A stretch of DNA of 64,000 bases, from assembly GCF_003201475.1 (NCBI RefSeq), contig NZ_QJJK01000004.1, positions 8,631 through 72,630 of the forward strand, written 5' to 3'. Under the pieces are notes generated by a model. It was not told the origin of the DNA and searched no databases. It saw only the letters and a program-made list of their open reading frames with translations. A program made the position numbers and the translations under genes. Positions 5,040 through 61,905 of the stretch are shown in pieces (positions within the stretch are counted from its first letter, which is position 1; every line of letters begins with the position of its first letter). The stretch is from Chelatococcus asaccharovorans (GTDB lineage: Bacteria; Pseudomonadota; Alphaproteobacteria; Rhizobiales; Beijerinckiaceae).

Positions 5040-5054
5040 ACGCGGCCGGATCCC

Positions 5055-8783: not shown

Positions 8784-8815
8784 ACGCTTAACAATGGAAT
8801 GTCGAGACGACATCA

Positions 8816-10897: not shown

Positions 10898-10953
10898 GCG
10901 ACACGGACATGAGCGATACTGACTTGCGCGACACTGACATGAGGGATGTCCAC
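10894..10953 (+). repeat. Four tandem 15-bp units coding an N-terminal pentapeptide repeat of HyuB
   Basis: Four imperfect 15-bp units follow one another exactly in frame and encode MSDTD, MSDTD, LRDTD and MRDVH. Three of the four begin with ATG and one with TTG, so each unit supplies another possible start codon. Confidence 0.85.
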
Positions 10954-46982: not shown

Positions 46983-48119
46983 ATGACAGGGTTGCCGTCC
47001 GACCGTGCTCCGAATTGGATCGCTCCCGAAAAGCTTCTCAATATGGCGGGGAATTTACCGCCTCGAGTACCGACGGTTTTTGATCGATGGTATCGCGAAG
47101 CGATTGAAAAGACACTGATCGACCATGCGCCACATGAACTGATCGGGGCTCATCAATTCCGAGGTTCCGAACGCGATCGCGCCGCAGGTGCGCGATTTGT
47201 CGCAAAACGGCTCGATGAGGCTCCCACCTCTGATAGGCTGATCGTTACCAATGGAACCCAAAGCGCCATAGTGATGCTGATGGCGGGCTTGGTCGGCCGT
47301 GGGGGCAAACTTGCAGTTGAAGAACTCAGCTATCCGTCGGTGAAGTATTTTGCTGAGTGTTTTGGCATCGAGCTCTGCAGTGTGCCGATGGACGAGGAGG
47401 GCGTTGTTCCAGATGCATACGAAAAAATATGCAAGGAAAGCCGTCCCACGGCCTTTTATGCAATGCCGACACTGCAAAACCCGACAACGGCCATTATGAG
47501 CACGGAACGCCGTCAGGCCATTGCTGGGATTTCACGTCGCTACGGCGTCTCAATCATCGAAGACGATATCTATAGTCTTTTGCCAATGGATCCACCTTTG
47601 CCGCTGTCGGCGTTTGCGCCTGAGATCTCCTGGTACATTTTGGGGACTGCCAAGTGTATCGCCCCAGCCCTGAAGATCGCCTATCTCGTCGCACCGAGTG
47701 CGAAAGAGGCGCTGGCCCGGTTCTGGCCCGGAGTAAGGGCGACTTACTGGATGTGCGCACCTATTAACGCGAGTGTTGCCTCAACGCTGATCGAGAGACA
47801 AGGGGCGGACGAGATCATCTCCGCGGTTCGACGAGAGACGCAAGCGCGTCAGGCCCTTGTCAGGGAAATGCTCTCCGGGGCTGACTATCGGGCACACTCT
47901 GAGGGCTTGCAGGTGTGGTTAAGTCTTCCACAATCCCGGCCCCGTGCCGAGTTTGTGTCAGAGGTTCGCTCTCTCGGTGTCGAGATCAGTTCCAGTGATA
48001 CATTTTTTTTCGGCAAGGATATTGCGCCAAACGCCATCCGCTTTGGTACCGGAACGGCACCTACTCGCGCGGAATTTGAACATGGGCTTCGTGCAATCGC
48101 ACAAGCTCTCCGACGATAA
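46983..48119 (+). CDS. PLP aminotransferase resembling the MocR catalytic domain, without DNA-binding domain, copy 1
   Basis: A 378-residue fold-type I protein. It has the cofactor motifs of MocR/2-aminoadipate aminotransferases (VTNGTQSAIVMLMAGL, YAMPTLQNPTTA, IIEDDIYSLLP) and the PLP lysine in LGTAKCIAPALKIAYLV. Unlike MocR proteins it has no N-terminal winged helix, so it is an enzyme rather than a regulator. The ATG at 46983 has an AGAGGT ribosome-binding site. It follows the binding-protein gene by 68 bp and precedes hyuBA. It is paralogous to the protein at 60111-61247. The amino donor or acceptor is not known. Confidence 0.85.
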   Translation: MTGLPSDRAPNWIAPEKLLNMAGNLPPRVPTVFDRWYREAIEKTLIDHAPHELIGAHQFRGSERDRAAGARFVAKRLDEAPTSDRLIVTNGTQSAIVMLMAGLVGRGGKLAVEELSYPSVKYFAECFGIELCSVPMDEEGVVPDAYEKICKESRPTAFYAMPTLQNPTTAIMSTERRQAIAGISRRYGVSIIEDDIYSLLPMDPPLPLSAFAPEISWYILGTAKCIAPALKIAYLVAPSAKEALARFWPGVRATYWMCAPINASVASTLIERQGADEIISAVRRETQARQALVREMLSGADYRAHSEGLQVWLSLPQSRPRAEFVSEVRSLGVEISSSDTFFFGKDIAPNAIRFGTGTAPTRAEFEHGLRAIAQALRR

Positions 48120-48280: not shown

Positions 48281-50002
48281 ATGAGTGCACTTACCATGTC
48301 CTCGAACCAGCAAAGATCAAACGACTGCTTCGACGAATCGTCGGACCAAGGCTTCAACGCGATCGAACTTGAGATTCTTTGGAACCGTCTCGTTTCAGTT
48401 GTTGATGAAGCTGCAATCGCCCTGCAAAGAACGGCGTTCTCAACCGTCGTTCGCGAATCCAATGATTTCACGATGGTCTTGATGGATTCCAGTGGAGCGA
48501 GCATCGCAGACACCAACGTCGGGACGCCATCGTTTGTTGGAATTCTTCCCCGCACGCTTAAGCAATGCCTGCAGGCCATTCCGCTGGAGGATTGGCGGCC
48601 CGGCGATCGAGTCATTACGAATGATCCTTGGATGACAGCCGGGCATGTTCTTGACCTTGCTATGCTCTCGCCGATTTTTCACGCTGGCAAGCTCATCGGC
48701 TTTTGTGGTTCTCTCGCGCATCTGCCGGATATCGGGGGCGCGCTGTTTTCCGCCGATTGCAGGGAGGTATTTGAAGAAGGCCTGCAAATTCCGCCAACGA
48801 AATTCCTTGAAGGAGACCAGGAGAACGCAACGCTCGTCGCTCTGATTCGGTCCAACGTGCGTGTCCCGGATCAAGTCATCGGAGATATCTATTCGCAGGT
48901 GACAGCACATGACGTTTGCCGGCGAAAAGTGGACGAATTCTTGTTGTCCGCGCAACTCACAAATCTCGATGCCATATCCTCGGCATTGCAAGACCGAGCC
49001 GATAGCGCAATGCGGGCGGCGATTGAAGTAATACCGGATGGACGGTATTGCTCTGAATTGGTCGCGGATGGGTATGACGATCAGGAGACTCGTATTGTCT
49101 GCGCTGTCACGATAGTTGGATCGAGCCTGCATATCGACTATACGGGAAGTTCCCCCCAGATTGGCCGTGGCATCAATTCGGTTCTGAATTTTACATATGC
49201 GCTGTCAGTCTATCCACTTAAGTGTGCTCTCGATCCTGCGACGCCGCGGAATGAAGGCTCGTATCGCTCAATCACTGTCATCGCGCCTGAGGGTTCAATT
49301 CTTAACCCGAGAAAGCCCGCAGCTTGCAACGCGAGGCAGTTGACAGCGCATCTCCTCGCTGGGGCGATCTACAAATGCCTTTCACAGGTCGTACCCGACA
49401 AGACAATCGCTGAATCGGGCACTGCTCCAACGTTGCGATCCGTATACAGCGGCATCGATCAGCATGGCAAACGCTTTTCCCAATTGCTCTTCGGCAGTGG
49501 TGGGATGGGCGCTTCAGCGTTCAAAGACGGATATTCCTGCACCCCGTTTCCAACGAACACTGGTTCGGGAAGTATTGAGGCTTTCGAGGCAGCAGCACCT
49601 CTTGTCGTTTGGCGCAAGGAGCTTGTTCCGGACTCCGGCGGTCCTGGCCAGTTTCGCGGCGGCCTTGGCCAAGAAATCGAGATCGAAATTGCTTCTTCAA
49701 ACGCGGTTCAAGTTTCTCTCATGGCCGACCGCCAGCGGCATCCACCGGAGGGATTGCTCGGAGGAGGACCCGGCGCACCCGTCACGATTCACTTGGATGA
49801 TGGTTCAACTCCGCATCCAAAATCTCGAAGCCTCCTTTTTCCCGGACAGAAGATTGTTCTTCGATATGCGGGCGCGGGCGGCTTCGGCCCTCCATCGCGT
49901 CGAGCGCGTGAGGCCATACTGCTCGATCTGAAAAATGGCTATGTCACGAGACGCGGGCTCCTGAACGAATATGGCATGGATATCAAGGAAACTATCGAAT
50001 GA
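48281..50002 (+). CDS. hyuB: Hydantoinase / 5-oxoprolinase subunit B, second copy
   Basis: About 573 residues. The HyuB core starts at AIELEILWNRLVSVVDEAAIAL; other family stretches are DRVITNDPWMTAGHVLDLAM, NARQLTAHLLAGAIY and PDSGGPGQFRGGLGQEIEI. It works with HyuA, which overlaps by 4 bp. Here hyuB precedes hyuA, the reverse of the order at 8816-12711, and the two HyuB proteins are only distantly alike, so this pair was acquired separately. The ATG at 48281 is chosen; an ATG at 48296 is also possible. GC is lower than in the first hyuAB locus. Substrate unknown. Confidence 0.88.
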   Translation: MSALTMSSNQQRSNDCFDESSDQGFNAIELEILWNRLVSVVDEAAIALQRTAFSTVVRESNDFTMVLMDSSGASIADTNVGTPSFVGILPRTLKQCLQAIPLEDWRPGDRVITNDPWMTAGHVLDLAMLSPIFHAGKLIGFCGSLAHLPDIGGALFSADCREVFEEGLQIPPTKFLEGDQENATLVALIRSNVRVPDQVIGDIYSQVTAHDVCRRKVDEFLLSAQLTNLDAISSALQDRADSAMRAAIEVIPDGRYCSELVADGYDDQETRIVCAVTIVGSSLHIDYTGSSPQIGRGINSVLNFTYALSVYPLKCALDPATPRNEGSYRSITVIAPEGSILNPRKPAACNARQLTAHLLAGAIYKCLSQVVPDKTIAESGTAPTLRSVYSGIDQHGKRFSQLLFGSGGMGASAFKDGYSCTPFPTNTGSGSIEAFEAAAPLVVWRKELVPDSGGPGQFRGGLGQEIEIEIASSNAVQVSLMADRQRHPPEGLLGGGPGAPVTIHLDDGSTPHPKSRSLLFPGQKIVLRYAGAGGFGPPSRRAREAILLDLKNGYVTRRGLLNEYGMDIKETIE

Positions 50003-52107
50003 ACATCCAAGCGCAGGCGTCTGGTGCAATCCGGATCGGTATCGACGTCGGCGGCACGTTTACCGACTTCGTTTTGATCGACGGCCAGAAGCAAAAGGTA
50101 TCCCTTGGCAAACGTCTGACCACGCACGCCGATCCGAGCCGGGGGATAATTGAGGGTCTTGATCGACTTCTTGCTGAAGGCGGGTACCCGATTGATGAGG
50201 TTGATGGCGTCGTCCACGGCACGACGCTGATTACGAACACAGTCATAGAACGGAACGGTGCGAAAATCGCGCTGGTCACTACTAGGGGCTTCAGAGATAG
50301 CCTCGAACTCGGGAAGGAGATCCGACACGATCGGCATGACCTTCACCTTCGCCGCCCCGAACCTCTTGTGCCCCGCCATCTCCGTCTAGAAGTAACCGAA
50401 CGCTTACGGGCCTCAGGAGACGTGTTGCTTGGCCTGGTGGAATCAGAGCTCCTAGACGTGGCTCAGACGCTGAAGAATGAGGAGGTCGAGGCCGTAGCGA
50501 TTTGTTTTCTTCACAGCTACGCCAATGGCGTCCACGAGCGGTTAGCGCGAGCGATCCTCGAGCAGGAACTACCCGGAGTTCCCATCACCCTTTCTCACGA
50601 AATCGCCCCTGAAATTCGTGAATACGAGCGCGCTAACACTGCCTGTGCCAACGCTTACGTGCAGCCGATGATGGACCGCTACCTGACGAGCCTAGATACC
50701 AAGCTTCGCCAGCGCGGATTTTCAGGAACATTGCGCCTCATGTTGTCGGGCGGTGGTTTAACGTCGGTGGATTTGGCTCAGCAGCGACCAATACACCTTT
50801 TGGAGTCTGGTCCGGCCGCCGGCGCCGCGGCTGCGACCTTCTATAGTCGTCTGCTCGGACTCTCACAGGTAATCTCATTCGACATGGGTGGCACGACAGC
50901 GAAGATGTGTCTTATCCATCATGGACGACCAGAATATTCAACGGAATTCGAGGCGGCCCGCGTAAGCCGCTTTCAGAAAGGCTCCGGTCTACCCATGAAA
51001 ATTCCGGTCATCGATCTCATCGAGATTGGCGCAGGCGGCGGTTCGCTTGCTCGCATCGATGGGATGGGGCTTCTCAAGGTAGGACCACAAAGTGCCGGTT
51101 CCGAGCCTGGGCCTGTTTGCTACGGTCGCGGAGGAACGCAGCCTACAGTTACCGACGCGGATTTGCTGTTAGGCTATATCTCCCCGACGTATTTCTTAGG
51201 CGGGGAAATGCCGCTTCATCTCGGAAAGGTCGTGGATGCGCTTACCAAGGACGTTGCAGAACCTCTCGGCATCGATGCTAGCACAGCCGCAATTGGAATC
51301 AGGAAGATCGTCGATGACAATATGGCTGCGGCCACTCGAATCTACATCGCAGAGAAGGGTGGCGATCCAAGAGACTATTCAATGCTTGCGTTCGGTGGTG
51401 CTGGTCCTGTCCACGCATGCGCTTTGGCGAGACTACTGGGCGTCAGGCGGCTAATCGTCCCAATCGGCGCCGGCGTGATGTCTGCCCTGGGTTTCCTCGT
51501 TGCCGCGCCGACTATCGACCTAGCTCGCAGCTATGGGGCACCGATCTCGAGGATCGATTGGCGGCGTGTTTCAGCTCTGATTCGAGAGATGGATGCAGAG
51601 GCAGCTGCGTTTCTCAATAGCCCGGGCGAACATGTCGACCCGATTGTGCGCTTGTATTCGGTCGATATGCGCTACTCCGGGCAAGGCTTTGAAATTCCAG
51701 TCGCGGTACCGGCACTATCGTTTGAGCGCGACGAGTCGTCACTGCTGGAGGCGAAGTTTCTGGAGGCCTATGAACGGAGATTCGGCCGATCCATCCCGGG
51801 GGTAACTATTGAAGTTCTGACCTGGAGATTGAAAGCTGTCGGCACAGTTCCCCCTGTTTCCGTTGCCCCCCCGGCCTCCGAAGCATGCGCCGCTATCGTG
51901 CAGCCGAAGGAACAGAGACTAGTCTTCTTTGACGGGAGAGGCATGACGTCAACTCCGGTCTACGACCGGTATTCTCTTCCATCAGGGTTCCAGCTCGAAG
52001 GTCCCGCCATCTTCGAGGAGAGGGAATCAACGACAATTGTTGAGCCTGGCTACTTCTGCGAGGTTGATCCTTATCGGAACCTCGTCGTGCAGCCTTGCGA
52101 AGCATGA
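49999..52107 (+). CDS. hyuA: Hydantoinase / 5-oxoprolinase subunit A, second copy
   Basis: A 702-residue HyuA protein with IGIDVGGTFTDFVLIDG at the N-terminus, SFDMGGTTAKMCLIHHG, the family signature GAGGGSLARIDG and GPQSAGSEPGPVCYGRGG. It supplies the ATPase half of a lactam- or hydantoin-opening enzyme with the HyuB encoded just before it. The 201 bp after its stop contain no gene, and then comes the second binding protein. It sits in the middle of the low-GC segment, probably in the same transcript as the aminotransferase and the binding proteins. Confidence 0.9.
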   Translation: MNIQAQASGAIRIGIDVGGTFTDFVLIDGQKQKVSLGKRLTTHADPSRGIIEGLDRLLAEGGYPIDEVDGVVHGTTLITNTVIERNGAKIALVTTRGFRDSLELGKEIRHDRHDLHLRRPEPLVPRHLRLEVTERLRASGDVLLGLVESELLDVAQTLKNEEVEAVAICFLHSYANGVHERLARAILEQELPGVPITLSHEIAPEIREYERANTACANAYVQPMMDRYLTSLDTKLRQRGFSGTLRLMLSGGGLTSVDLAQQRPIHLLESGPAAGAAAATFYSRLLGLSQVISFDMGGTTAKMCLIHHGRPEYSTEFEAARVSRFQKGSGLPMKIPVIDLIEIGAGGGSLARIDGMGLLKVGPQSAGSEPGPVCYGRGGTQPTVTDADLLLGYISPTYFLGGEMPLHLGKVVDALTKDVAEPLGIDASTAAIGIRKIVDDNMAAATRIYIAEKGGDPRDYSMLAFGGAGPVHACALARLLGVRRLIVPIGAGVMSALGFLVAAPTIDLARSYGAPISRIDWRRVSALIREMDAEAAAFLNSPGEHVDPIVRLYSVDMRYSGQGFEIPVAVPALSFERDESSLLEAKFLEAYERRFGRSIPGVTIEVLTWRLKAVGTVPPVSVAPPASEACAAIVQPKEQRLVFFDGRGMTSTPVYDRYSLPSGFQLEGPAIFEERESTTIVEPGYFCEVDPYRNLVVQPCEA

Positions 52108-52308: not shown

Positions 52309-53580
52309 GTGAAAACGACACGCAGAACCTTTCTTATCGGCGCAATGTCTTCAAGTTGCCTCGCAACGCCACACGTTAGCCGGGCCGCCAACCGGACGAA
52401 ACTGACAATCAGTAATGGAGCACCCCAATATCAGCAAGTTTTGACAGATCTCGCAACGGAGTTCCGTCGTGAAAGTCCGGAAATCGAAGTCGATTTCGTC
52501 GTCGCTGGCGACAGCTGGGATCCCTTGTTGCAGAATACTTTGCGTGGCTCCTTGGTTGGAGACTTGCCGGACGGAACATGGCAGTCGCTAACTTATGCGC
52601 CGCTCCTTGCCAAACGTGGCATCGCCCAGCCGTTGACCACGCAATTTGGCGGTTCGTCCGAGTTTGAGGCGATGGGCTTACCCAAAGACATGGTCGAAGC
52701 GTCTATGAGGGGCGGACAAGTATTCGCGATGCCTTTCGGAACGACCGTTCCTATCGTTTATTGCAATATGGATCTGCTTCGACGTGGAGGATATTCCAAG
52801 ACGAATGCGCCCGGGACGTGGGACGAGATAGCGGAAGTCGGCGCGAAGGTGGCCGTTCTCGGTAATCCGATAAATGGCGGTTACATTGCATATCCCTCGA
52901 CCAACGCCTGGATGTTCCAAAACCTGCTGGCCTCTTTCGGTGGGCAAATGATGACCGCTGATCAGAGAGAGATCGCCTTCGACGGGCCGGAAGGACTGCG
53001 CGCGCTAGAGGTCCTCTGGCAGCTCGGCGCCGCGAGCAATATAGACATGACTCATCCTCAAGCCATCAACGCCTTTAGTGCTGGCTCGGAGGGATTTCTC
53101 ATAACTTCGGCGAGCGCAACAAAGGCCGTTTCAAAGGCAGCGGCGGGATCGTTCGATTTTCAAGTCGGACAGTTTCCAGTTCACGGTGAGAATGGCCGGC
53201 TCATCGGCGCTGGGCATGGTTTCATGGTGTTCACGAAGGACCCGGAGCGGCAAAAGGCTCTCGGCCAGTTCATGAAGCTAGCGCTCAGCCCCACTGGACA
53301 GATGATCCTCGCGCGCAACACCGGTTATATGCCCGTCAACATCCTTGCTTTAAAGGACGCCAAGTTCCTCGAAGAATACCTTTCGATCAATCCCTACCAT
53401 CGCGCAATCGTAGAGCGTCTGTCGATTACTGGCGATCAGTTCTCATTCCCCTCGGAAAATACAGTCAAGATCGTGGAGATGATCGCGGAGACAATGCGCC
53501 AGGTTGTCGTCCACCAGGCGAAGCCCGCGCAGGCATTGGCGTCGATGGCTGATCAAACCCGGAAGCTGATTAAGACTTAA
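52309..53580 (+). CDS. UgpB-like solute-binding protein, copy 2
   Basis: A 423-residue periplasmic protein with a twin-arginine signal (TTRRTFLIGAMSSSCLA). Paralogous along its whole length to the protein at 45637-46914: DSWDPLLQNTLRGS, TWQSLTYAPLLAK, MPFGTTVPIVYCNMDLL, STNAWMFQNLLASFGG and GDQFSFPSENTVKIVEM. The GTG at 52309 has AGGAG upstream. No permease accompanies it, so it probably shares the importer at 42548-45617 with copy 1 and widens its ligand range. Confidence 0.88.
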   Translation: MKTTRRTFLIGAMSSSCLATPHVSRAANRTKLTISNGAPQYQQVLTDLATEFRRESPEIEVDFVVAGDSWDPLLQNTLRGSLVGDLPDGTWQSLTYAPLLAKRGIAQPLTTQFGGSSEFEAMGLPKDMVEASMRGGQVFAMPFGTTVPIVYCNMDLLRRGGYSKTNAPGTWDEIAEVGAKVAVLGNPINGGYIAYPSTNAWMFQNLLASFGGQMMTADQREIAFDGPEGLRALEVLWQLGAASNIDMTHPQAINAFSAGSEGFLITSASATKAVSKAAAGSFDFQVGQFPVHGENGRLIGAGHGFMVFTKDPERQKALGQFMKLALSPTGQMILARNTGYMPVNILALKDAKFLEEYLSINPYHRAIVERLSITGDQFSFPSENTVKIVEMIAETMRQVVVHQAKPAQALASMADQTRKLIKT

Positions 53581-53702: not shown

Positions 53703-54575
53703 GTGGCAAGCATTTCCATTCAAGAATCCTGTCATCTCCATGTAGTGGAGGCCGGCAGCAACGATCGCGACCCGATCATAATCGTGCATGGCGGACGGGG
53801 CACAGCTGATCACAAAGCCGACTTCTTTGCCTTTCGTCCTCTGTCAAATGCCTTCCATTTGTATGCCTACGATCAACGTGGACACGGCAGATCGTCAGGC
53901 GGGGAGAGTGCGAGCTTTGGTCGGCTGGTTGCCGATTTGGAGCAACTCCGAGTGCGACTATTTGGCCAACGACCCATTTCGATAATCGGCGTCTCATATG
54001 GAGGCATGGTGGCTCTCTCATATGCTATCTCGTACCCCGAGAAGGTCGAGAAGCTTGTGGTGATCGGATGTGCAGCCAGCCATGACTTTGTCGAGCCAGC
54101 CTTGCAGCAATACGAAATCCGAAGAGATTGCGCTCCTCTTACCAGCAAGACAATGGTTCGGCGCATGCTGGACACCGGTTTCGACAGCGATCTCGAACTG
54201 AGGCTGGCCTGGTTTGCGCTTCGGCCCCTTTACGGTCAATGTGCGAATGCGGACGAATTGCTCTCGGCAGCAGCGAGCATTCACTTTGATGCTGCCCTGC
54301 ATCGCTCACTCGTTTTGAATCCGGCCTATGACATGCGCAATCGGCTGGCCGCGGTTGAGGCCAACACGCTTGTTGTCTGCGGAGCCGACGACTGGATCTT
54401 CACGCCGCAGTTTTCCAAAGAGATTGCATCCGGCATTTCCCGTTGCGAACTCTTAATCGTTCCGGATTGCGGGCATGCAGCGCATGTCGGTGCACCCGAA
54501 CTGGTCCTATCTGCGATTCACCAACACGTTGCTGGTCGTGTCTCCGTCCCGAGGCGACGCGCCCCCGCTTGGTAA
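53703..54575 (+). CDS. Alpha/beta hydrolase
   Basis: A 290-residue cytoplasmic hydrolase. The oxyanion strand IIIVHGGRG, the YDQRGHGRS loop, the nucleophile elbow IGVSYGGM (Ser98) and the C-terminal histidine in PDCGHAAH, with an acid in CGADDWIF, form a full catalytic triad. It resembles proline iminopeptidase and ester hydrolase types. The GTG at 53703 is the chosen start. The gene lies 122 bp after the second binding protein and converges with the minus-strand methyltransferase gene, with only 5 bp between the stops. It may release an ester or amide intermediate of the local pathway. Confidence 0.82.
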   Translation: MASISIQESCHLHVVEAGSNDRDPIIIVHGGRGTADHKADFFAFRPLSNAFHLYAYDQRGHGRSSGGESASFGRLVADLEQLRVRLFGQRPISIIGVSYGGMVALSYAISYPEKVEKLVVIGCAASHDFVEPALQQYEIRRDCAPLTSKTMVRRMLDTGFDSDLELRLAWFALRPLYGQCANADELLSAAASIHFDAALHRSLVLNPAYDMRNRLAAVEANTLVVCGADDWIFTPQFSKEIASGISRCELLIVPDCGHAAHVGAPELVLSAIHQHVAGRVSVPRRRAPAW

Positions 54576-54580
54576 CGCAA

Positions 54581-55411
54581 TCATCTACAGCGCGTGGCAA
54601 CGGTCATCTCGGTGCGGTAGCGAACCTCTACATCGCCCCGCTCATCTGCATGCTTGGCGATAAGGCGATCGAGGTTCTCAAGGACAGCTTTCTCTGTGTG
54701 AAGCTCATAGGCTTTTTTCATGTGAGACATGCTAAGGCAATAACCGCGGAAAGCGCGGGCGGGGACAAGTCGGTTCCAGTCTTTTGCGATCCGTTGCACT
54801 CCAGTGAACCCCGCGTCCCTCTCTAGTTCATCAACGAAGTTAGCTTCAGAATAGCCACCCGTAGAATCAGAGTACAAACCGCGGCGGTACATCGGGACAT
54901 GCCGTTCTTGAAACGACTCGAAGTCTGACATAAACTGACTCGCGTCCGGGCGCGGCTTGTGTTGAAGGATGAGAAGCAATCCTCCGTCGATCAATATCCG
55001 CTTGACTTCCGTGTAAAATGCGGAGCGATCGAACCAGTGAGCAGCAGTGGCTGCTGTCACTAACCCACACGAGTTATCACCGACGGGAATCGCTTCCGCG
55101 AAACCGACGATATATTGCGGTACGACCCTTGGAGACGCCGAGGAAGCGCCCGAGCGCTCTACCGCTTTATTGCGCATGTCGTCATTGGGATCTACACCGA
55201 GTACGAACTTTGCTCGTGGAAAGAGTTCGGTCAATTCGCGGGTGAAGATTCCTGTTCCGCAACCGATATCAACGATTCCGTGCTCTGCAGCCAGCCTTGA
55301 GACTCCCTCAAGAGCCGCGATCTCTGAATCGAGTCGATAGCCGGGCCGGTACGAATCGTAGTCATCGTGCACCCCATAGTAGAGCTGCCACGTTTGTGTT
55401 TGAACCGACAT
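54581..55411 (-). CDS. SAM-dependent methyltransferase, copy 1
   Basis: A 276-residue class I methyltransferase. The N-terminal YDSYRPGYRLDSEI stretch is followed by motif I IVDIGCGTGIFTREL and the acidic VLGVDPNDDMR, then VTAATAAHWFDRSAFYTEVKRIL, as in the UbiE-like 'methyltransferase domain' group. The ATG at 55411 has AGGAGGGTC in front, which decides it over 55444. It is the last gene of a seven-gene minus-strand operon and a paralogue of the methyltransferase at 58637-59464. The acceptor is unknown. Confidence 0.85.
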   Translation of the reverse strand: MSVQTQTWQLYYGVHDDYDSYRPGYRLDSEIAALEGVSRLAAEHGIVDIGCGTGIFTRELTELFPRAKFVLGVDPNDDMRNKAVERSGASSASPRVVPQYIVGFAEAIPVGDNSCGLVTAATAAHWFDRSAFYTEVKRILIDGGLLLILQHKPRPDASQFMSDFESFQERHVPMYRRGLYSDSTGGYSEANFVDELERDAGFTGVQRIAKDWNRLVPARAFRGYCLSMSHMKKAYELHTEKAVLENLDRLIAKHADERGDVEVRYRTEMTVATRCR

Positions 55412-55515
55412 GTGACCCTCCTTAGTTCTCAGCCAAGACAACAATTGTGCTGTCGATCATCGAAGTGGGTTCATCCGATCGACCGCAATATTGTCAAAAG
55501 TCGGGGTTCTTTTGT

Positions 55516-55983
55516 TCAGTCACCGTCCCGATCGGCACCTTGGGCGGCGAGGTCGCGATCTGGATTTGCCTCTTGAAACTTGGATAAGCTTGCCGTCAGG
55601 CGCGCAAGGAACCGCGCACAAAGGAAATCCACCCGGTGATCGGAACCATCGAAAGGAACGACCCAAACAAGCCGTTTCCGTAAACTTTCGTCAGCGGAAT
55701 ATGGGAAACTGCCGTCATCGCCGACGCCGATCATCTTCGCCGTGGTTCCTCCGTTGCAAAGTTGCCTGATCGTCTTCCAGTCGGGGTTTTCGTTGGCAAA
55801 CACTTGCTTGTCGCCCTCTTCAGTGGGCCGCCCTCGGGTTTCACGATGGAAGAAGTCAAAGCTATGCGCTGTCGCAAGAATCGCCGTAAAGAGATCGTCA
55901 ATTTGCTGGGTTTTGGTAAATTGATCGACAGCGCGCTCGGCAAGTCCGATATACTCTTGTGCCGTTTCCGGGAATTTTTGCAT
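55516..55983 (-). CDS. Unrecognised small protein of the minus-strand operon
   Basis: A 155-residue protein with no family I can name. The ATG at 55983 has a strong GGAGGG 4-5 bp upstream, which decides the start over a longer frame to 56130 that would overlap the SelA-like gene. It is soluble, with no signal or membrane segment, and looks mixed helical (PETAQEYIGLAERAVDQF, then FTAILATAHSFDFFHRETRG), with an acidic C-terminal tail ending in DRDGD. The spacing to the gene before it is 40 bp and to the gene after it 104 bp. The good ribosome-binding site and operon position support that it is real. Confidence 0.6.
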   Translation of the reverse strand: MQKFPETAQEYIGLAERAVDQFTKTQQIDDLFTAILATAHSFDFFHRETRGRPTEEGDKQVFANENPDWKTIRQLCNGGTTAKMIGVGDDGSFPYSADESLRKRLVWVVPFDGSDHRVDFLCARFLARLTASLSKFQEANPDRDLAAQGADRDGD

Positions 55984-56023
55984 ATAACCCTCCAAACTGT
56001 AGCGTCTGCTATGGGGGCTTTGT

Positions 56024-57568
56024 TCAAGTCCCATGTTGGGCGACAAGTCGCGCATTCCATTCCGCATCTCCAAACTGCCTAAAAAGGGACGGGCTCCGTA
56101 GCTCCCGTGGAGAGCCACCGAGGTGAACAACTCCCTTGATGCGGTCTTCGCAGCGCCGGCCTTCGAAATGATAGTGAAGTTCCATTTGGTCGACTTGATA
56201 CTTCACGAGGAGGTAAATATCGTCGCCGCGGGTGTATCCTTTTACAGGCGTTTCGAAAGTAGTGCTTCGATAAACACCGCTGATTTCCTCCCTTTTCTGC
56301 ATCAACTCTATTGCATGCTCTTCAATTCGGCCGGCGAAAGTTACAACGCTGTTCCAGGATCCCGAAAAAATCCTATCCGGTTCTCGGCCGGCCGCTCGTC
56401 GTTTGTTCCCGATCTCCGACTGCAGATCCCGGAACACGGAGGTCAACGATCCTGAAACTAGGCGGGCCTGTTCGTGATCAACAATATTGAATGGGTCAAT
56501 GACCACGACGTTTTTATTTGTGTGAAAATCCGGAAGTTGAATCTGAAAATCGCGTAGCATACGCGCGACAACCTGGTCAGCTTTGACACGGCTGTCATCC
56601 CAGCCAATCTGGAGGCGCGGCGTCAGTGCCCACCAAGTTGAGGGCTGGATAGAGGCCCGGAAGAGATCAGCGGGAAGGTCTGAAACTATTGTCTTCAACA
56701 AACGATACCACCTCCGCTCGTCAGTCGCGCGCAGAGATGGGGTAAGCCAAGCCTCAAGGGCGACGACTGCTCCAATGATCTCCTCTTTGCCGACCTTCAT
56801 GGACCGACCGAAAGAAAGATGGGGTGGCCCGTTCGCCCAGGCAGCCCGCGCAAGCCGTTCCGATCCGACCAGTAAGCCGCTCGACTGTGGCCCTCTTAGA
56901 TATTTTCCACCGGAATAGATCGCTAAGGTGGCGCCCCGAGATAGCCAGGGGTCAGGCGTGCCGGGGGACAGGCCAGCTGCATCCACTACGATCGGCAAGT
57001 GTCCAACGCGTCGACGTATCTCCTCCAACGACATTTTGCGGTCGGTGGCCTCCGCCCTGCCCAGGAAGCACACCATGCATGCCGTCTCAGCCGCTTTTTC
57101 GAGCGCATCGAGACTCTCGAACGGGACGAGTTCTGCCCCGACAGTAGTCATCACGGAATCATAGGGGAACCGATGTGTCTGCGGAATAAGGACTCGATTT
57201 TTCAAGGCTCCGGTCTTGGGCAATCTCGTCATTGCAACGGGTTCGTTCCCTGCGATGCATGCAGCAGTGGACAACGCCAACGCCGCAACGCTGCCTGCTG
57301 TCACAATGCCCCATTCCGCCCCGATTAGTCGAGCGATGTATCTGCCGACTCCTTCGGCGAGCTCATCCATATCGACAAAGCCCTCACCGGCCGCCTTCAT
57401 GGCGTTCATGACCAACGCAGTTGGATTACTTCCACCAAAGCTCGATCTAGTGCCGGCGCAATTGATGATCGGTCGGACCCCTAACGCCTCGTAGATCCAG
57501 CCGCGGCGAGCGCTTTCACGGGATTTGAGTTGCTCGCACAACGAAGAAAATTGACGATCAGATGTCAT
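56024..57568 (-). CDS. SelA / DgaE-like PLP-dependent lyase with C-terminal extension
   Basis: A 514-residue fold-type I PLP protein. The PLP lysine is in AIYSGGKYLRGPQSSGLLVG, the hallmark of the selenocysteine synthase / D-glucosaminate-6-phosphate ammonia-lyase group; LGVRPIINCAGTRSSFGG near the start is also typical. Around 140 C-terminal residues (from about FAGRIEEHAIELMQKREEI on) go beyond the usual length and end in a His-rich MELHYHFEGRR segment. It probably eliminates ammonia, water or an acyl group from a modified amino acid. It overlaps the deacylase before it by 4 bp, so its substrate may be the deacylated product. It is not a selenium gene: no selB or selenocysteine tRNA is nearby. 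Confidence 0.75.
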   Translation of the reverse strand: MTSDRQFSSLCEQLKSRESARRGWIYEALGVRPIINCAGTRSSFGGSNPTALVMNAMKAAGEGFVDMDELAEGVGRYIARLIGAEWGIVTAGSVAALALSTAACIAGNEPVAMTRLPKTGALKNRVLIPQTHRFPYDSVMTTVGAELVPFESLDALEKAAETACMVCFLGRAEATDRKMSLEEIRRRVGHLPIVVDAAGLSPGTPDPWLSRGATLAIYSGGKYLRGPQSSGLLVGSERLARAAWANGPPHLSFGRSMKVGKEEIIGAVVALEAWLTPSLRATDERRWYRLLKTIVSDLPADLFRASIQPSTWWALTPRLQIGWDDSRVKADQVVARMLRDFQIQLPDFHTNKNVVVIDPFNIVDHEQARLVSGSLTSVFRDLQSEIGNKRRAAGREPDRIFSGSWNSVVTFAGRIEEHAIELMQKREEISGVYRSTTFETPVKGYTRGDDIYLLVKYQVDQMELHYHFEGRRCEDRIKGVVHLGGSPRELRSPSLFRQFGDAEWNARLVAQHGT

Positions 57569-58608
57569 TGGGATTGCTCGATCGGATCGGCTATCGTGTC
57601 GGGCGACCAGATTCTCCCGATATTGAAAAGGCAGTCGCCGACGCGGGCTCTTGCTAAAAAACGTCGACATAGCACGACGCCGCCAACTCCAAAATAGACC
57701 GGTATAGGCTTCCGCCATGGCTCGTCCGTAAAATGGATGCGGCCCGCGTCCTGACCATCGTCCACAGTATCGCCAAGGTTTACGAGTGGCTCGAACAATC
57801 CATTTGCTGGCGCATAGACGAACTCCTTGGGTTGAACGCGATAAAGAAGCCGGATTGAACCAGATTGAGGCTCCTCGGGAGCCTTAGCGAGGAGACCAAC
57901 GTGATGCAGTAGGCGGGCAAGTCCATTCTCCGCCGCAGTGAGCAATCCGAGTGAGGCGGTGCCTCCACCGCCCAACTCAGTCGAGAGACAAGGGATTCCT
58001 CCTAGGCGATCGCAGGCGCCGGTCAGGCTGCGGTCTCCCCCTGTGGACCCATCGGTCGCGAACCCGACAGGCAGCCCAAACACCCGCATGAGGTCAAGGT
58101 CCCGGCGAAGTTGCGAGGTCGACTTCGAGGAAACAACCACCGTTGAAGGCAGGTATTCCAATGAACCTCCTCCTGAGTGAAAGTCGCAAACGAGGTCGCA
58201 GCCGGGCAATAACACCGTTTCAATGAAATGAGCGATCATCATGGTTGGAGGTCCGTTGGGATCTCCTGGAAAACTACGATTCAGGTTGCCATGGTCAAAA
58301 GGTGAAACACGCTGACCAGCCTCAACGGCCGGAGCGTTCGCTCCTGGCAGAACGATGAGCTGTCCCCGAACGTCGTCCGATTGCAGTGACTGGATCAGCT
58401 TGATCAACATGATCTGGCCTTCCCATTCGTCGCCATGGCTGCCCGCGATCAACAGAATCCGAGGACCGGATCCGTTCTTGATGCTCGCGATGGGAACGGG
58501 AATCCATCCATATGCTGACTCGTTTGTCGAGATTGGCACGCGAAGGTAACCAGTCGTCTTTCCCTCTTTTTGAAGATCGATTTCGGTCCAGATCCTTGAC
58601 CTTTGCAT
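57565..58608 (-). CDS. Aspartoacylase / succinylglutamate desuccinylase-family deacylase, second copy
   Basis: About 347 residues, paralogous to 33583-34632. The zinc site is in IAGSHGDEWEGQ and VCDFHSGGGSLEY, and STELGGGGTASLG matches the active-site loop of the paralogue. The ATG at 58608 has GGCAGGA upstream and gives a length like the paralogue; earlier in-frame starts run to 58647. It should cleave an N-acyl amino acid. The stop overlaps the SelA-like gene by 4 bp. The GNAT acetyltransferase two genes upstream may add the group removed here, or the two may act on different intermediates. Confidence 0.84.
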   Translation of the reverse strand: MQRSRIWTEIDLQKEGKTTGYLRVPISTNESAYGWIPVPIASIKNGSGPRILLIAGSHGDEWEGQIMLIKLIQSLQSDDVRGQLIVLPGANAPAVEAGQRVSPFDHGNLNRSFPGDPNGPPTMMIAHFIETVLLPGCDLVCDFHSGGGSLEYLPSTVVVSSKSTSQLRRDLDLMRVFGLPVGFATDGSTGGDRSLTGACDRLGGIPCLSTELGGGGTASLGLLTAAENGLARLLHHVGLLAKAPEEPQSGSIRLLYRVQPKEFVYAPANGLFEPLVNLGDTVDDGQDAGRIHFTDEPWRKPIPVYFGVGGVVLCRRFLARARVGDCLFNIGRIWSPDTIADPIEQSQ

Positions 58609-58636
58609 CGTTGTCCTGCCTTGCATGGTCGACATG

Positions 58637-59464
58637 TCAAGCGCCACAAATAGCGGTTGTAAGTTCAGTGGTGTATGTCACATCGATGATGCCGTTCGCA
58701 TCGCAGTGATCGGATATAATTGACCGCAACTCGCCCATAATCGCGGCGTCGCCCCTCTCCGCACGGGCCATTTTGACTTGAATCGTCGACAAGGCAAAAG
58801 CTTCAAAGCCCTCGGAAGTAAACTGTCTCGGCCAGTCCCACTTTTGCAGCAAGACACCTGAGAAGCGATCATCCGAGGTCAGTTCTGCATGGAAGTCAGC
58901 AGCCGAATGGCCGCCCCGAGCATCTGCGTACGTGCCGGTCCGGTATCCAGGAACGAACTTTTCGAGGAATACCTCGAAGGACCGAAACAGACCGGCCTCA
59001 CACCTTCGCTTGTTTTGCAACAGGGCGAGAAGACCTTCACTGACCAAGACCCGATGGGCCTCGGTATAAAATTGCTCCCGATCGAAGAGCTGTGCGGCGC
59101 CGGCCGCAGTTATCACAGCAACGGATCGATCACCGAACGGAAGCCGCTCGGCCGGAGACTGCACAAATCGGATCGGTCGAACTGTTGTTGTCGCTTCGAG
59201 AGCTCGCTGGATCATCATTGAGCTTGGTTCAAGACCACGGATTTCAAACGTTTCGCCAAGAGCGTCCGATAGCATCCGTGTGAAAATACCTGTCCCACAG
59301 CCCACGTCGACTATCCGACGCGAGGAGCTGCCGAGAGCGAGAGTTCGCTTTGCGATCTCTTGGACGACGTCGTCTGGATATCCCGGTCGTTCCTTATCAT
59401 AGTGTTCGCCAAGCGACTGATAATGTTCCCACGCAATGGGCTTCGTCAGAATTTTGGTCGACAT
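58637..59464 (-). CDS. SAM-dependent methyltransferase, copy 2
   Basis: A 275-residue class I methyltransferase: YDKERPGYPDDVVQEIA, motif I IVDVGCGTGIFTRML, acidic IRGLEPSSMMIQ and VITAAGAAQLFDREQFYTEAHRVL. It aligns along its whole length with the protein at 54581-55411, including the FYTE-HRVL/FYTE-KRIL stretch and the later GGxSxADF motif. The ATG at 59464 with GGAGA upstream is chosen over a longer frame to 59578 that would overlap the GNAT gene. The next gene follows after 28 bp. Two paralogous methyltransferases in one operon suggest two methylation steps or two related substrates. Confidence 0.85.
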   Translation of the reverse strand: MSTKILTKPIAWEHYQSLGEHYDKERPGYPDDVVQEIAKRTLALGSSSRRIVDVGCGTGIFTRMLSDALGETFEIRGLEPSSMMIQRALEATTTVRPIRFVQSPAERLPFGDRSVAVITAAGAAQLFDREQFYTEAHRVLVSEGLLALLQNKRRCEAGLFRSFEVFLEKFVPGYRTGTYADARGGHSAADFHAELTSDDRFSGVLLQKWDWPRQFTSEGFEAFALSTIQVKMARAERGDAAIMGELRSIISDHCDANGIIDVTYTTELTTAICGA

Positions 59465-59517
59465 GACATTTCTCCAGAGAGCGCGTGCGACTTTTGATCC
59501 TGCATGTCTGCAGCATA

Positions 59518-60093
59518 TCAAGACCCGCGGACGTCCACGTGACACCGGCGAAAAGGTGCGGCTCGGGCGAGCTTGCAAGCGCCCGCGCTCGGCCGCCCCA
59601 AATGTCGTGCGAACCGATAGTGGGGTTGGAGACCCGGGATATTTCGCTCGCCACCAATTTGCCTGAAACTATGATGCCGATAAAATCCACCTGCTGTTGT
59701 TCTCCCGTTGCACCACACCAGGACACCCCCGCGCCTACGAATTTCGCGTAAACCGTGCTCCAACACGGCGCTGGCAAATCCAAGCCGTCGAAACTCCGTA
59801 GCCGTTGCCATGCCGCGGATCCTCCAAGCGCTTCCCGGGACGCGCATTTCCTCAAGTCCCATATCTTCGAGAATGAAACTGCCGACAGAGGCCAGGAGCG
59901 GACCGCAGTACGCTCCGACGTGAAATACCTCGTCGGCGTAGGGATATGCCGGCACTGGTTTCGGCGGCGCAGGGGCCAACGCCATAGTCCGAAGCTCGAA
60001 GCCCGCCTCCTCAGAAATCAGACAGACGCGCAGATCGGTATCAGCCAAAGGGACCTGACCAATCGTCCCTGGGTGAGATGAGTAATTGTTCAC
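59518..60093 (-). CDS. GNAT-family N-acetyltransferase
   Basis: About 191 residues. The acetyl-CoA motif A is visible in RIRGMATATEFRRLGFASAVL, followed by EHGLREIRRRGG, and motif B in ARTTAGGFYRHHSF-like text (GRTTAGGFYRHHSFRQIG). Start choice: an ATG at 60111 abuts the aminotransferase stop (TGATG), but the codons just after it form a near-perfect AGGGAGGTGA ribosome-binding site placed 5 bp before a GTG at 60093. Both are possible and 60093 is preferred. It is the second gene of the minus-strand operon and is predicted to acylate an amine intermediate. The C-terminal 30 residues are Arg/Ala-rich. Confidence 0.78.
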   Translation of the reverse strand: MNNYSSHPGTIGQVPLADTDLRVCLISEEAGFELRTMALAPAPPKPVPAYPYADEVFHVGAYCGPLLASVGSFILEDMGLEEMRVPGSAWRIRGMATATEFRRLGFASAVLEHGLREIRRRGGVLVWCNGRTTAGGFYRHHSFRQIGGERNIPGLQPHYRFARHLGRPSAGACKLARAAPFRRCHVDVRGS

Positions 60094-60110
60094 TTTCACC
60101 TCCCTTTTCA

Positions 60111-61247
60111 TCAGCGCGCGTCGTGAAGAGACGCGATGATCGCCAGTCCGCGTTTGAGTTCGTCTTGGGTCGACGGCACTCCAAGGCCGATTCGAAACTT
60201 GTGATCTCCACGTTCATTGTTGACTGCGAAGGAATCGCCGGCGCCCACAACCACTCCGGCGTCGAGAGCTGCCTTCACGAATTCCGAGAGCTGCCAGCCT
60301 CGTGGCAAGTCGATCCAAAGATGATAGTTGGACGCCTTCGACGATATCTGCTCACAGGGCAGGATTGATGCGGCGAGAGCCCGGCGTCTCGACGTCTCCA
60401 ATCGCACTGACCGCAAGATCTCATACGCAATGCCGCTTGAGAGCCAGTGCGATGCAACCTCGGCCACCAGAGGTGCAACCATCCAATTTGTGGTCCGCAC
60501 TCCGGGCCAAAAGACATCCTTTGTGATATGGGCGTTTGGCCCAACGACATAAGCTACTCGCAGCTGCGCAGCGAGCGACTTACTCAGTCCAAGCATGTAC
60601 CAGCTGCGCTCAGGCGCATAGACGGACAGCGGAGGAGGGGAATTTTCAGGGAGCATGCCATAAATGTCGTCTTCGAAGAGCCATAAATCATGGCGTCGAG
60701 CCACTTCTGCAATTTCGGCACGTCTAGCATCCGACATCGTGGCCGAGGTGGGATTATGCAATGTAGGCATGCAATAAAGTGCACGAGCATCATCGCGCAT
60801 CTCTGCGCAAGCTCGCTCGAGGCTGGTGGGAGTGATCCCCTCATCATCCATCGACACAGGATGGAGCTTGATTCCAAATAGTCTCGATAGAGGCTTTATG
60901 GCTGGATAAGTCAGCTCTTCAACGAGCAGGGTACCTCCTGGCTTGACGAAGTACGCCATGAGCATAGCGAGAACATTTTGCGAACCGCTCGACAAAACCA
61001 CGCGTTCCGGATCTGGCTTCTGGTCGAACCGTTGCGCAAGCCAGGTCGATGCAGCTTCTCGATCGCGGGCTGTCCCCATGAAGCGTGGAAAACGGATCGC
61101 GTCGGCGATGTTTGCCCCTCCAAGATCAACAAAACTGTCCTCCAAGGCGCGCTGAACCAAAGGGCTCGGTGGCGGAAAATTCCGTCCGAAGTCGATAGAT
61201 GATGCGGGGACTTGCGCAGCCTTTTTGATACCGGAAAGATCGTCCAC
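60111..61247 (-). CDS. PLP aminotransferase resembling the MocR catalytic domain, copy 2
   Basis: A 378-residue fold-type I enzyme paralogous to 46983-48119: VLSSGSQNVLAMLMAYF, YCMPTLHNPTSATMS, LFEDDIYGMLPENSPPP and the PLP lysine in MLGLSKSLAAQLRVAYVV. It lacks the winged-helix domain of MocR regulators. The GTG at 61247 is preceded by GGGAGG at the right distance. It is the first gene of the low-GC part of the operon, 34 bp after the CDP-alcohol transferase gene, so it may be co-transcribed with the activation genes upstream. Confidence 0.85.
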   Translation of the reverse strand: MDDLSGIKKAAQVPASSIDFGRNFPPPSPLVQRALEDSFVDLGGANIADAIRFPRFMGTARDREAASTWLAQRFDQKPDPERVVLSSGSQNVLAMLMAYFVKPGGTLLVEELTYPAIKPLSRLFGIKLHPVSMDDEGITPTSLERACAEMRDDARALYCMPTLHNPTSATMSDARRAEIAEVARRHDLWLFEDDIYGMLPENSPPPLSVYAPERSWYMLGLSKSLAAQLRVAYVVGPNAHITKDVFWPGVRTTNWMVAPLVAEVASHWLSSGIAYEILRSVRLETSRRRALAASILPCEQISSKASNYHLWIDLPRGWQLSEFVKAALDAGVVVGAGDSFAVNNERGDHKFRIGLGVPSTQDELKRGLAIIASLHDAR

Positions 61248-61281: not shown

Positions 61282-61905
61282 CTAAGGCTCCATCGTTGAC
61301 ACCATCGCGAGCGCAATCGAAGCGGCGAGCGCGAAGGCCGTCGCGATCGGGACAGCCACGCCACGAATGGCCGGGACACGAATTGCGGTCGTCACATGCA
61401 AGATCGCCAATATGATAAAGGCCGCTGCGACCAACGTCGGAAAGACGGAAGCCGGAATGACCGGGCGCGATAGGAGCATGATGGCCAGAAGCGGAGTGTC
61501 GTAAGAAACCGGAATGCCAGTGAACCGCGCGCCGCTTGTCAGCCCAACGTTCTCGAAGTAGCTGAGCCGTATCGCACCTGCCAGAACCAAGAGCAAACTT
61601 GCGACCAGCGATAAGGCGCTGCCTTCGCCAACGAGAATGATCACTGCGGCCGGAAACACAACACCATGGATGAAGTCTGCAAAGCCATCAAAGCTTTTCC
61701 CAAAGTCAGCCACGCCTGGGCGGCGAAGGTGGCCCGTCTTGCGGGCGACATGCCCGTCCCAGTGGTCGAGGAACCACGTCCAGAGCATCGCGGACGTGCC
61801 GAGCTCGACATGGCCGTTCAGCGCGAGGAACAGGCCGGCGATCGCGAACACATAGCCGACGGCGGTGATGGCGTTGGCGTAATCGCGGAGATAGAGCAGC
61901 ATCAT
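61282..61905 (-). CDS. CDP-alcohol phosphatidyltransferase-family membrane enzyme
   Basis: A 207-residue integral membrane protein with about six helices. The catalytic motif reads D47-HW-DG-HV-AR followed by G69-KSF-D73-GFA-D77. All four aspartates of the canonical DxxDGxxAR...GxxxDxxxD are present, but the AR-to-G spacer is 13 residues rather than 8. The enzyme would move an alcohol-phosphate or phosphonate head group from a CMP-activated donor to a lipid or other alcohol. It overlaps the cytidylyltransferase gene by 4 bp. Together with that gene and the aminotransferase this is the layout of phosphonolipid or phosphonoglycan synthesis. GC is back to the high level of the main chromosome. 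Confidence 0.85.
   Translation of the reverse strand: MMLLYLRDYANAITAVGYVFAIAGLFLALNGHVELGTSAMLWTWFLDHWDGHVARKTGHLRRPGVADFGKSFDGFADFIHGVVFPAAVIILVGEGSALSLVASLLLVLAGAIRLSYFENVGLTSGARFTGIPVSYDTPLLAIMLLSRPVIPASVFPTLVAAAFIILAILHVTTAIRVPAIRGVAVPIATAFALAASIALAMVSTMEP

Follow-up and report, generated by a model that had tools for sequence, protein, structure and literature searches.

The 64,000-nucleotide stretch of Chelatococcus asaccharovorans DNA analysed here (the window) contains seven genes at 54581-61247, and the question is what these genes make or break down. The original prediction took them for a seven-gene operon with an enzyme combination matching no known pathway, serving either catabolism of a modified amino acid or synthesis of a small specialised metabolite. 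We find pepM and further candidate phosphonate genes directly upstream, and genes resembling those for phosphonoalanine degradation on the other side. The best overall explanation, with a probability of about 0.72, is that the seven genes form the tailoring end of an eleven-gene phosphonate operon, paired with an uptake and breakdown side and used in the manner of an opine.

The seven genes and the probable phosphonate genes upstream

All seven open reading frames (ORFs) are present on the minus strand in the predicted order and families, with spacings of -11 to +104 bp, and GGAGG-type stretches precede MocR2, the small-protein gene and MT2 by inspection of the sequence. The operon, on the other hand, starts further upstream than was predicted. 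The seven are directly preceded, on that strand, by a CDP-alcohol phosphotransferase (CDPAP), a nucleotidyltransferase (NTP) and an aminotransferase (AT2), separated by 34, -4 and 40 bp, and pepM lies 70 bp beyond AT2, just past the end of the window, so that the operon comprises about eleven genes. This phosphonate context, unseen in the original prediction, changes what the operon is. In order of transcription the genes are as follows.

64022-64936 (extended coordinates, outside the window, same contig), minus: pepM, phosphoenolpyruvate (PEP) mutase; TIGR02320
62755..63951, minus: AT2, Asp-type aminotransferase, candidate phosphonopyruvate transaminase; PF00155, 188 bits
61902..62714, minus: NTP, LicC/PntC-like nucleotidyltransferase; best PDB match LicC 1jyk, 1.5e-13
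61282..61905, minus: CDPAP, CDP-alcohol phosphotransferase; PF01066, 33.8 bits, cut-off 22
60111..61247, minus: MocR2, stand-alone EhuR/MppQ-like fold-I pyridoxal phosphate (PLP) enzyme, first tailoring gene; NF052286 (EhuR), 301.9 bits, cut-off 480
59518..60111, minus: GNAT-like acetyltransferase; weak match, PF00583 (Acetyltransf_1), 22.4 bits, cut-off 20.7
58637..59464, minus: MT1, class I S-adenosylmethionine (SAM) methyltransferase; PF08241, 61 bits; DVGCGTG
57565..58647, minus: DoeB-like deacylase (AstE/AspA family); PF24827, 111 bits; TIGR02994, 227 bits, cut-off 402.7
56024..57568, minus: SelA-like, PLP enzyme of SelA/DgaE/Cap15 fold with an extra C-terminal beta domain; TIGR01437, 127 bits, cut-off 385
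55516..55983, minus: small protein of no family; 63% match in B. rifense (L007)
54581..55411, minus: MT2, second class I SAM methyltransferase; PF08241, 62.5 bits

PepM scores 352.5 bits on TIGR02320, above the curated cut-off of 319.55, and its EDKGFPKMNS fits the PEP mutase motif EDKX5NS. No phosphonopyruvate decarboxylase was found above cut-off in the whole genome, the best Ppd match reaching 38.6 of 312.5 bits, and since an Asp-type aminotransferase stands beside pepM, the phosphonoalanine branch is the natural reading; PMC11867202 describes PnaA as an aspartate-aminotransferase-type enzyme coupled to PepM. NTP is a candidate for LicC/PntC-type activation beside pepM, and its use of CTP is predicted by resemblance: PntC (6pd1, 1.6e-9) ranks fifth among its PDB matches, after other sugar nucleotidyltransferases, and its top NCBIfam model is a uridylyltransferase (84 of 400 bits). 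CDPAP matched nothing in the PDB; it carries the motif D..DG..AR(13)G...D...D, in which the spacer is longer than the canonical 8 residues. The eleven genes are most likely a biosynthetic operon for a carbon–phosphorus (C-P) compound of the phosphonoalanine branch, with the seven genes as its tailoring part, a reading drawn from sequence. The class of chemistry is well supported, and on it we propose a product, its export and its role.

Within the tailoring part, residues 16-376 of MocR2 match positions 94-450 of the EhuR profile, and the helix-turn-helix (HTH) part of the profile has no counterpart. The closest PDB structure to MocR2 is MppQ (8tn2), and a candidate PLP lysine lies in GLSKSLAAQLRV. 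The GNAT-like protein also scores 23.6 bits on Acetyltransf_7, below its cut-off of 27, and has 68-70% identical copies in four Bradyrhizobium loci. MT1 and MT2 are 40% identical. The PDB relatives of the deacylase are 3cdx (2e-65), for which no function is named, and DoeB 6twl (4e-58), so that DoeB is its nearest characterised relative. The small protein gave no match in Pfam and NCBIfam searches; its sole near-full-length match is the 63% one in B. rifense, in a stretch with a stop codon, and B. algeriense contains fragments.

The SelA-like protein most likely starts at the ATG at 57568, which overlaps the DoeB-like stop by 4 bp, and not at 57718. The lysine of its SGGKYLRGPQ is invariant in 18 aligned sequences. 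The predicted structure has a mean predicted local distance difference test (pLDDT) score of 87.9 and a predicted template modelling (pTM) score of 0.84, and a Foldseek search with it returned Cap15 (8t7j) and DgaE (7lc0) at the top, with TM scores of about 0.8 by target length. It shares with these two enzymes the fold and the PLP lysine, and differs from them in being only about 25% identical and in carrying the extra C-terminal beta domain. The cut-offs of the DgaE families were not reached (127 of 385 and 108 of 600 bits), and a DgaE function was not adopted since Cap15-like chemistry is equally close by fold. DgaE is an ammonia lyase, and Cap15 an O2-dependent oxygenase-decarboxylase that forms a carboxamide. 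Judging from the model, the reaction of the SelA-like protein could be an oxidative decarboxylation to an amide, or an elimination.

The probable uptake side and the linkage of PepM with a putative phosphonopyruvate hydrolase

Between 37717 and 54575 the window holds a second set of genes, which begins with a putative phosphonopyruvate hydrolase (PPH) and includes a Ugp-type ABC importer.

37717..38589, minus: PPH, PalA-like; TIGR02321, 368.3 bits, cut-off 374.4; EDKTFPKVTS
38586..39800, minus: AT1, transaminase in the PalB position; PF00155, 234 bits; overlaps PPH by 4 bp
39980..40894, minus: LysR-type regulator in the PalR position; copies of 60-69% identity in nine stretches holding the AT1/PPH set
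41031..42551, plus: NPP, NPP-type phosphodiesterase; PF01663, 111 bits; PDB relatives are NPP-family enzymes
42548..43723, plus: UgpC-like ABC ATPase; 4 bp overlaps with its neighbours; 66-74% in stretches with the same importer type
43720..44682, plus: ABC permease 1; 76-84% in 11 stretches with the same importer type, 63% in L009
44679..45617, plus: ABC permease 2; 70-82% in 11 stretches with the same importer type, 62% in L009
45631..46914, plus: SBP1, solute-binding protein at the left edge of a block with low GC content at third codon positions (GC3); GC3 0.62 against 0.85 in the preceding gene
46983..48119, plus: MocR1, second stand-alone EhuR-like PLP enzyme, on the catabolic strand; EhuR, 286 bits, cut-off 480
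48281..50002, plus: HyuB-like subunit (caprolactamase/oxoprolinase family); PF02538, 459 bits; start picked by eye
49999..52107, plus: HyuA-like subunit; PF01968, 292 bits; CapA, 531 bits, below cut-off 1000
52309..53580, plus: SBP2, second solute-binding protein; 54% identical to SBP1
53703..54575, plus: alpha/beta hydrolase; PF00561, 95 bits

The described phosphonoalanine degradation (pal) set consists of a transaminase, PPH, a LysR regulator and transporters (PMC10574752), and PPH, AT1, the LysR-type regulator and the transporters appear to match it by sequence. PPH scores 286.4 bits on the PEP mutase model, 82 bits less than on the hydrolase model. MocR1 and MocR2 are 39% identical. Of the two roles originally proposed, the synthesis of a small specialised metabolite is supported. 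As genes for breaking down a modified amino acid the seven are not best understood, the catabolic half lying on the other side with AT1, PPH, NPP, the ABC genes, MocR1 and hyuBA.

The two halves also occur together elsewhere. In 397 genomes drawn evenly from the order, with PepM counted at an identity of at least 70% and PPH at E <=1e-90, PepM was present in 7, PPH in 12 and both in 6. PPH was thus found in 6/7 PepM carriers versus 6/390 remaining genomes (Fisher p 1.2e-9, or 3.5e-8 with the C. asaccharovorans genome left out); counted by genus the figures are 5/5 versus 2/137, two of the six double carriers belonging to one genus. Another eight of the 397 genomes hold a PepM form of 55-60% identity in longer reading frames, and PPH was found in none of these eight. 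Both genes lie on one contig in 4/6 double carriers, and on one contig also in four Bradyrhizobium genomes and one Mesorhizobium genome. Plasmids were searched by comparing 60 of 84 PepM records with all 35 PPH records. Among the matches listed, 14 plasmids (281-1717 kb) were in both lists, with the two genes 6.8-33.6 kb apart; against random independent positions the combined p for these 14 is 9e-7, a value that treats the records as independent when two are near-twins (1e-6 minus one twin). In a set of 16 plasmid records, six hold PPH together with PepM, and in one, from Microvirga (W14), two PPH copies and no PepM match were found.

PPH sets are also found apart from pepM. The C. asaccharovorans genome has a second PPH on another contig (G000:C13, ~138-146 kb; L121, L122), with UgpC, permeases, a diverged solute-binding protein and an EhuR-like gene, and no pepM on that contig; it is possible that this is a consumer set for another variant. 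The Microvirga sp. VF16 plasmid (L118, L126), an unannotated record, has two PPH sets and, inside or close to its uptake operon, DoeB-like genes; PepM gave no match there.

Composition, proposed exchange and distribution

GC3 ranges from 0.714 to 0.847 in the eleven core genes and from 0.554 to 0.625 across the uninterrupted run of thirteen genes that extends from SBP1 to MocR2, and the borders fall exactly at perm2/SBP1 and CDPAP/MocR2. Of 18 other stretches tested, some of which share a genome with one another, eight have a core GC3 above that of the cassette at p<0.02 (L005, L008, L093, L094, L095, L112, L113 and L114). Nine stretches that combine other cassette types with the same importer, and were selected for carrying it, have permeases 70-84% and UgpC 66-72% identical to those of the window and an SBP1 only 28-42% identical. 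Outside this set, L009 has permeases of 62-63% and an SBP1 of 31%, and L113 permeases of 28-30% and an SBP1 of 34%. Because binding proteins generally evolve faster, the Bradyrhizobium comparison serves as a control: permeases are 77-82% identical there (two stretches), and the best SBP1 is 52-61% identical (seven stretches, four genomes). The block from SBP1 to MocR2 therefore looks, by sequence comparison, like an exchangeable specificity cassette between conserved flanks. Relatives on symbiosis plasmids and a Ti plasmid retain the pepM core with different decorations. Among the sister clusters these include an SDR with a methyltransferase and TauD on the uptake side, or Asn-synthase-type enzymes with peptide-type importers. 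In Rhizobium CCGE531 the synthesis operon has an Asn-synthase-type enzyme and the uptake side a membrane dipeptidase and a peptide-type ABC importer, mirror chemistry of decoration and uptake in one sister cluster.

Conserved co-occurrence of the genes, which had been suggested as a check, is found for five of them: after CDPAP, MocR2-GNAT-MT-DoeB-SelA stand in this order in four Bradyrhizobium species, at 68-81% identity. The order is the same in Mesorhizobium metallidurans, where the genes have diverged further (32-51%) and a second methyltransferase comes after SelA. The Bradyrhizobium loci showed no place of a second methyltransferase. SelA-like genes of this type are rare. They occur in 3 of the 397 genomes, among them the C. 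asaccharovorans genome and G266, which has no phosphonate genes next to it, and in 13 plasmids; the 80 loci retained out of 416 include six near ones. The other 74 loci (L010-L083), many of the 80 being on short contigs, gave no PPH, AT2, NTP or CDPAP match at E 1e-8; PepM was not among the queries, yet the PPH query finds PepM at ~40%. In a SelA tree of 89 rows, which left out two loci with stops and three short loci, 19 phosphonate-linked rows and G266 form one starred branch apart from 69 others. The label was assigned by the analyst, and 17/19 rows have pepM in the stretch read; the other two are R. jaguaris (L096) and E. canadensis (L097). G266 has its SelA-like gene amid ABC-importer and oxidase-like ORFs, in a stretch without pepM.

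NodC exceeded its cut-off in nine, and NifH in eleven, of a further 19 genomes or plasmids carrying the SelA-like gene, plasmid records being searched alone. The B. rifense contig with pepM also carries NifH, the R. gallicum cluster is ~10 kb from nifH, that of S. terangae is near nifS, nifW and nifQ, that of S. meliloti AK57 is on pSymA, and that of M. huakuii has FixH and cbb3 oxidase genes nearby. Of 19 annotated pepM stretches, chosen by hand and read by eye with no background control, 15 show an ABC importer together with a binding protein; plasmids of this sort are rich in importers. Among the remaining four, none was seen in L120, L129 or L100, the last of which is cut off by the beginning of its record, and all that L117, another type of pepM cluster, shows is a glycine-betaine set of an adjacent operon.

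The highest plasmid PepM identity among the matches listed, 83%, is to Agrobacterium plasmids and pTi_CFBP1905, whose cluster has a different tailoring set and no close PPH on the record searched. There (L115, pAt2; L116, pTi_CFBP1905) pepM stands with ParB-domain, ornithine cyclodeaminase-like and cysteine synthase-like genes, a trio reminiscent of diaminopropionate synthesis. Several other neighbourhoods were recorded. On R. jaguaris pRCCGE525a (L096) the SelA-like gene is accompanied by a cytidylyltransferase, a GHMP kinase and a CDP-alcohol phosphotransferase, near a very large non-ribosomal peptide synthetase/polyketide synthase gene. The pepM operon of M. japonicum pMLa (L120) has a dehydrogenase, asparagine synthetase B and a glutamate cyclase-domain gene, with a hydantoinase gene further on. 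At L088:4620-10413 long ORFs that by eye resemble YD-repeat/Rhs proteins lie upstream of the pepM operon, and window positions 3556-13874 form a hydantoinase/DSD1-type PLP/ABC region ~79% identical to two Bosea plasmids.

Proposed pathway, alternatives and known systems

The reactions, product, release and role proposed here are predictions from gene families, order, linkage, composition and recurrence. PepM would convert PEP to phosphonopyruvate and AT2 would transaminate this to phosphonoalanine, which NTP would activate with a nucleotide, probably to CMP-phosphonoalanine. CDPAP would then transfer the activated phosphonoalanine to an alcohol to give a phosphonate ester, while the aminotransferase-like, GNAT, methyltransferase, deacylase and SelA-like enzymes would build or decorate the partner molecule or the amino group. 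On the other side, the binding protein, permeases and UgpC would import such a compound and NPP would split the ester; AT1 would transaminate phosphonoalanine and PPH would cleave the C-P bond to give pyruvate and phosphate, with MocR1, HyuBA and the alpha/beta hydrolase undoing the decorations. The compound might be released and later recovered by cells with the same cassette, as in the opine system.

A phosphonate operon with a paired catabolic module is highly probable. Making and breaking the C-P bond would be futile in one cell at one time and becomes sensible if split between cells or times; because one cluster carries both activities, we favour an opine-like system. Such a private nutrient is preferred on account of plasmid carriage, the exchangeable specificity, the PPH sets without pepM and the major facilitator superfamily (MFS) gene that follows a sister operon in S. 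meliloti (L114). Taken by itself, the opine-like role stands at somewhat below even odds.

Several observations weigh against this explanation. The composition break exactly between MocR2 and CDPAP means that the history of the seven genes differs from that of the core, and the GC3 contrast is not significant in 10/18 stretches (L004, L006, L007, L009, L089, L118, L121, L124, L125 and L127); in L089 and L121 it is the cassette that has the higher GC3. Here the deacylase is part of the synthesis operon, whereas Microvirga, B. rifense and L009 have it among their uptake genes, in that operon. No exporter family was found among the eleven genes. PPH lies 6 bits below the TIGR02321 cut-off, and the 36 kb read for the second PPH set contained nothing matching AT1 or NPP. 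The two genes are on separate contigs in G087 and G072, and G352 has PepM without PPH; no close PPH was found in G405 or G266, or in nine of the 16 plasmid records (W04-W07, W10, W12, W13, W15 and W16), of which W04 and W05 lack PepM as well. A symbiotic host was rejected for this genome, in which NodC reached at best 42.5 of 550 bits and the NifH model matched only pieces of ~40 residues (best 28.3 bits, Pfam cut-off 25), with no full-length NifH. NifA/sigma-54 control of synthesis found no support in 19 pepM upstream regions of 400 bp. The best -24/-12 score upstream of pepM, with the gene start set by a tblastn match at eight loci, was reached by at least 9% of shuffles, and TGT-N10-ACA occurred in 2/19 (L115 and L120); L004-L006, best at 9-11% of shuffles, may not begin their operon at pepM.

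The cluster might instead make a phosphonate antimetabolite, an antibiotic or plant-active compound, with the catabolic genes for self-protection or phosphorus recycling. Phosphonate natural products are known for potent inhibition (PMC11867202), the fold of the SelA-like enzyme is near that of Cap15 from an antibiotic pathway, and the MFS gene after one sister operon would suit such a product. A dedicated importer and full mineralisation to phosphate exceed what self-protection needs, however, and PPH sets stand without an adjacent pepM in this genome and on the Microvirga plasmid. We consider an antimetabolite unlikely. Improbable, in our view, is a phosphonate that decorates the cell surface as a phosphonolipid or phosphonoglycan, which has been proposed for most pepM clusters, the catabolic genes then being an unrelated neighbour. 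CDP-alcohol phosphotransferases usually make membrane lipids. The logic of PntC also aims at glycans and lipids (PMC6697681), and phosphonoalanine is present in phosphonolipids (PMC10574752); against this, none of the eleven genes was recognised as a glycosyltransferase or lipid gene, PepM co-occurs with PPH, and uptake by way of a binding protein points to a compound that is small and soluble. Similarly small is the chance that the seven genes arrived as a low-GC insert, for example one for modified amino acid catabolism, with no relation to the pepM operon beside which they are parked. The sharp GC3 change and the resemblance of the deacylase, EhuR-like and hyu genes to catabolic families would fit an insert, but the same genes directly follow CDPAP in four Bradyrhizobium species and M. 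metallidurans, and the phosphonate-linked SelA-like rows with the single unlinked one share a branch apart from the other 69. Ectoine-type catabolism as the main function was rejected, the DoeB (227 of 402.7) and EhuR (302 of 480) cut-offs not being reached; the enzyme families of MocR1, MocR2 and the deacylase are those of ectoine utilisation, whereas their scores are far under the family cut-offs and the EhuR HTH part is missing.

The opine-like phosphonate system that we favour can be compared with several described ones. Agrocinopines are phosphodiester opines. Rhizopine systems are carried together with genes for nodulation and nitrogen fixation, their synthesis genes being under a NifA/sigma-54 promoter, and a Ti opine synthesis gene lies in the T-DNA and is expressed in the plant. 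Rhizopines and Ti opines resemble the present system in their linked synthesis and catabolism genes, their location on plasmids of plant-associated bacteria and their variable compound types, and a pepM cluster of this kind is present on pTi_CFBP1905; they differ in that here the compound would be a phosphonate, no NifA promoter was found and the host is not a symbiont. Linkage of synthesis and catabolism genes belongs to the rhizopine concept (PMC3999197) and is found here, and PMC6429109 treats agrocin 84 and cites agrocinopine papers. Phosphonoalamide biosynthesis (PMC11867202) shares PepM with an Asp-type aminotransferase leading to phosphonoalanine; there ATP-grasp peptide ligation follows, whereas here nucleotidyl activation and CDP-alcohol transfer would follow, with different tailoring genes and a catabolic partner. 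The PntC system (PMC6697681) likewise has pepM near a LicC-like nucleotidyltransferase, but PntC uses aminoethylphosphonate, and here no phosphonopyruvate decarboxylase was found in the genome and CDPAP and tailoring genes are added. In the pal degradation of Variovorax and Burkholderia (PMC10574752) transaminase, PPH, LysR and transporter genes stand together as here, where an NPP-type phosphodiesterase and a linked synthesis operon are added. PMC10708946 reports pepM with a decarboxylase in a free-living Bradyrhizobium. The original statement that no described pathway has this set agrees with the open-access literature searched by title and abstract, in which we also found no description of the paired pepM/PPH architecture or its modular exchange, most subscription papers being beyond that search. 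Each enzyme family is already known; the apparent novelty lies in the joined make-and-break architecture with modular exchange.

The usual reason for mining phosphonate clusters is the search for antibiotics, and work on the breakdown of phosphonates treats it as scavenging. More tentatively still than the opine-like role itself, we suggest that Hyphomicrobiales may possess "phosphonate opines": plasmid-borne clusters of a constant C-P-making core, a constant breaking and import core and an exchangeable cassette, which would determine the decoration that is added as well as the binding protein recognising it and the enzymes taking it off. Plasmid carriage extends to symbionts and agrobacteria, and a cluster with both halves and with exchangeable specificity allows a function to be predicted for gene sets whose annotation is at present hypothetical, along with testable compounds. 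If this proposal is true, phosphonates can act as private nutrients with phosphorus itself as the currency, and the carriers of such clusters own a private currency of phosphorus and nitrogen.

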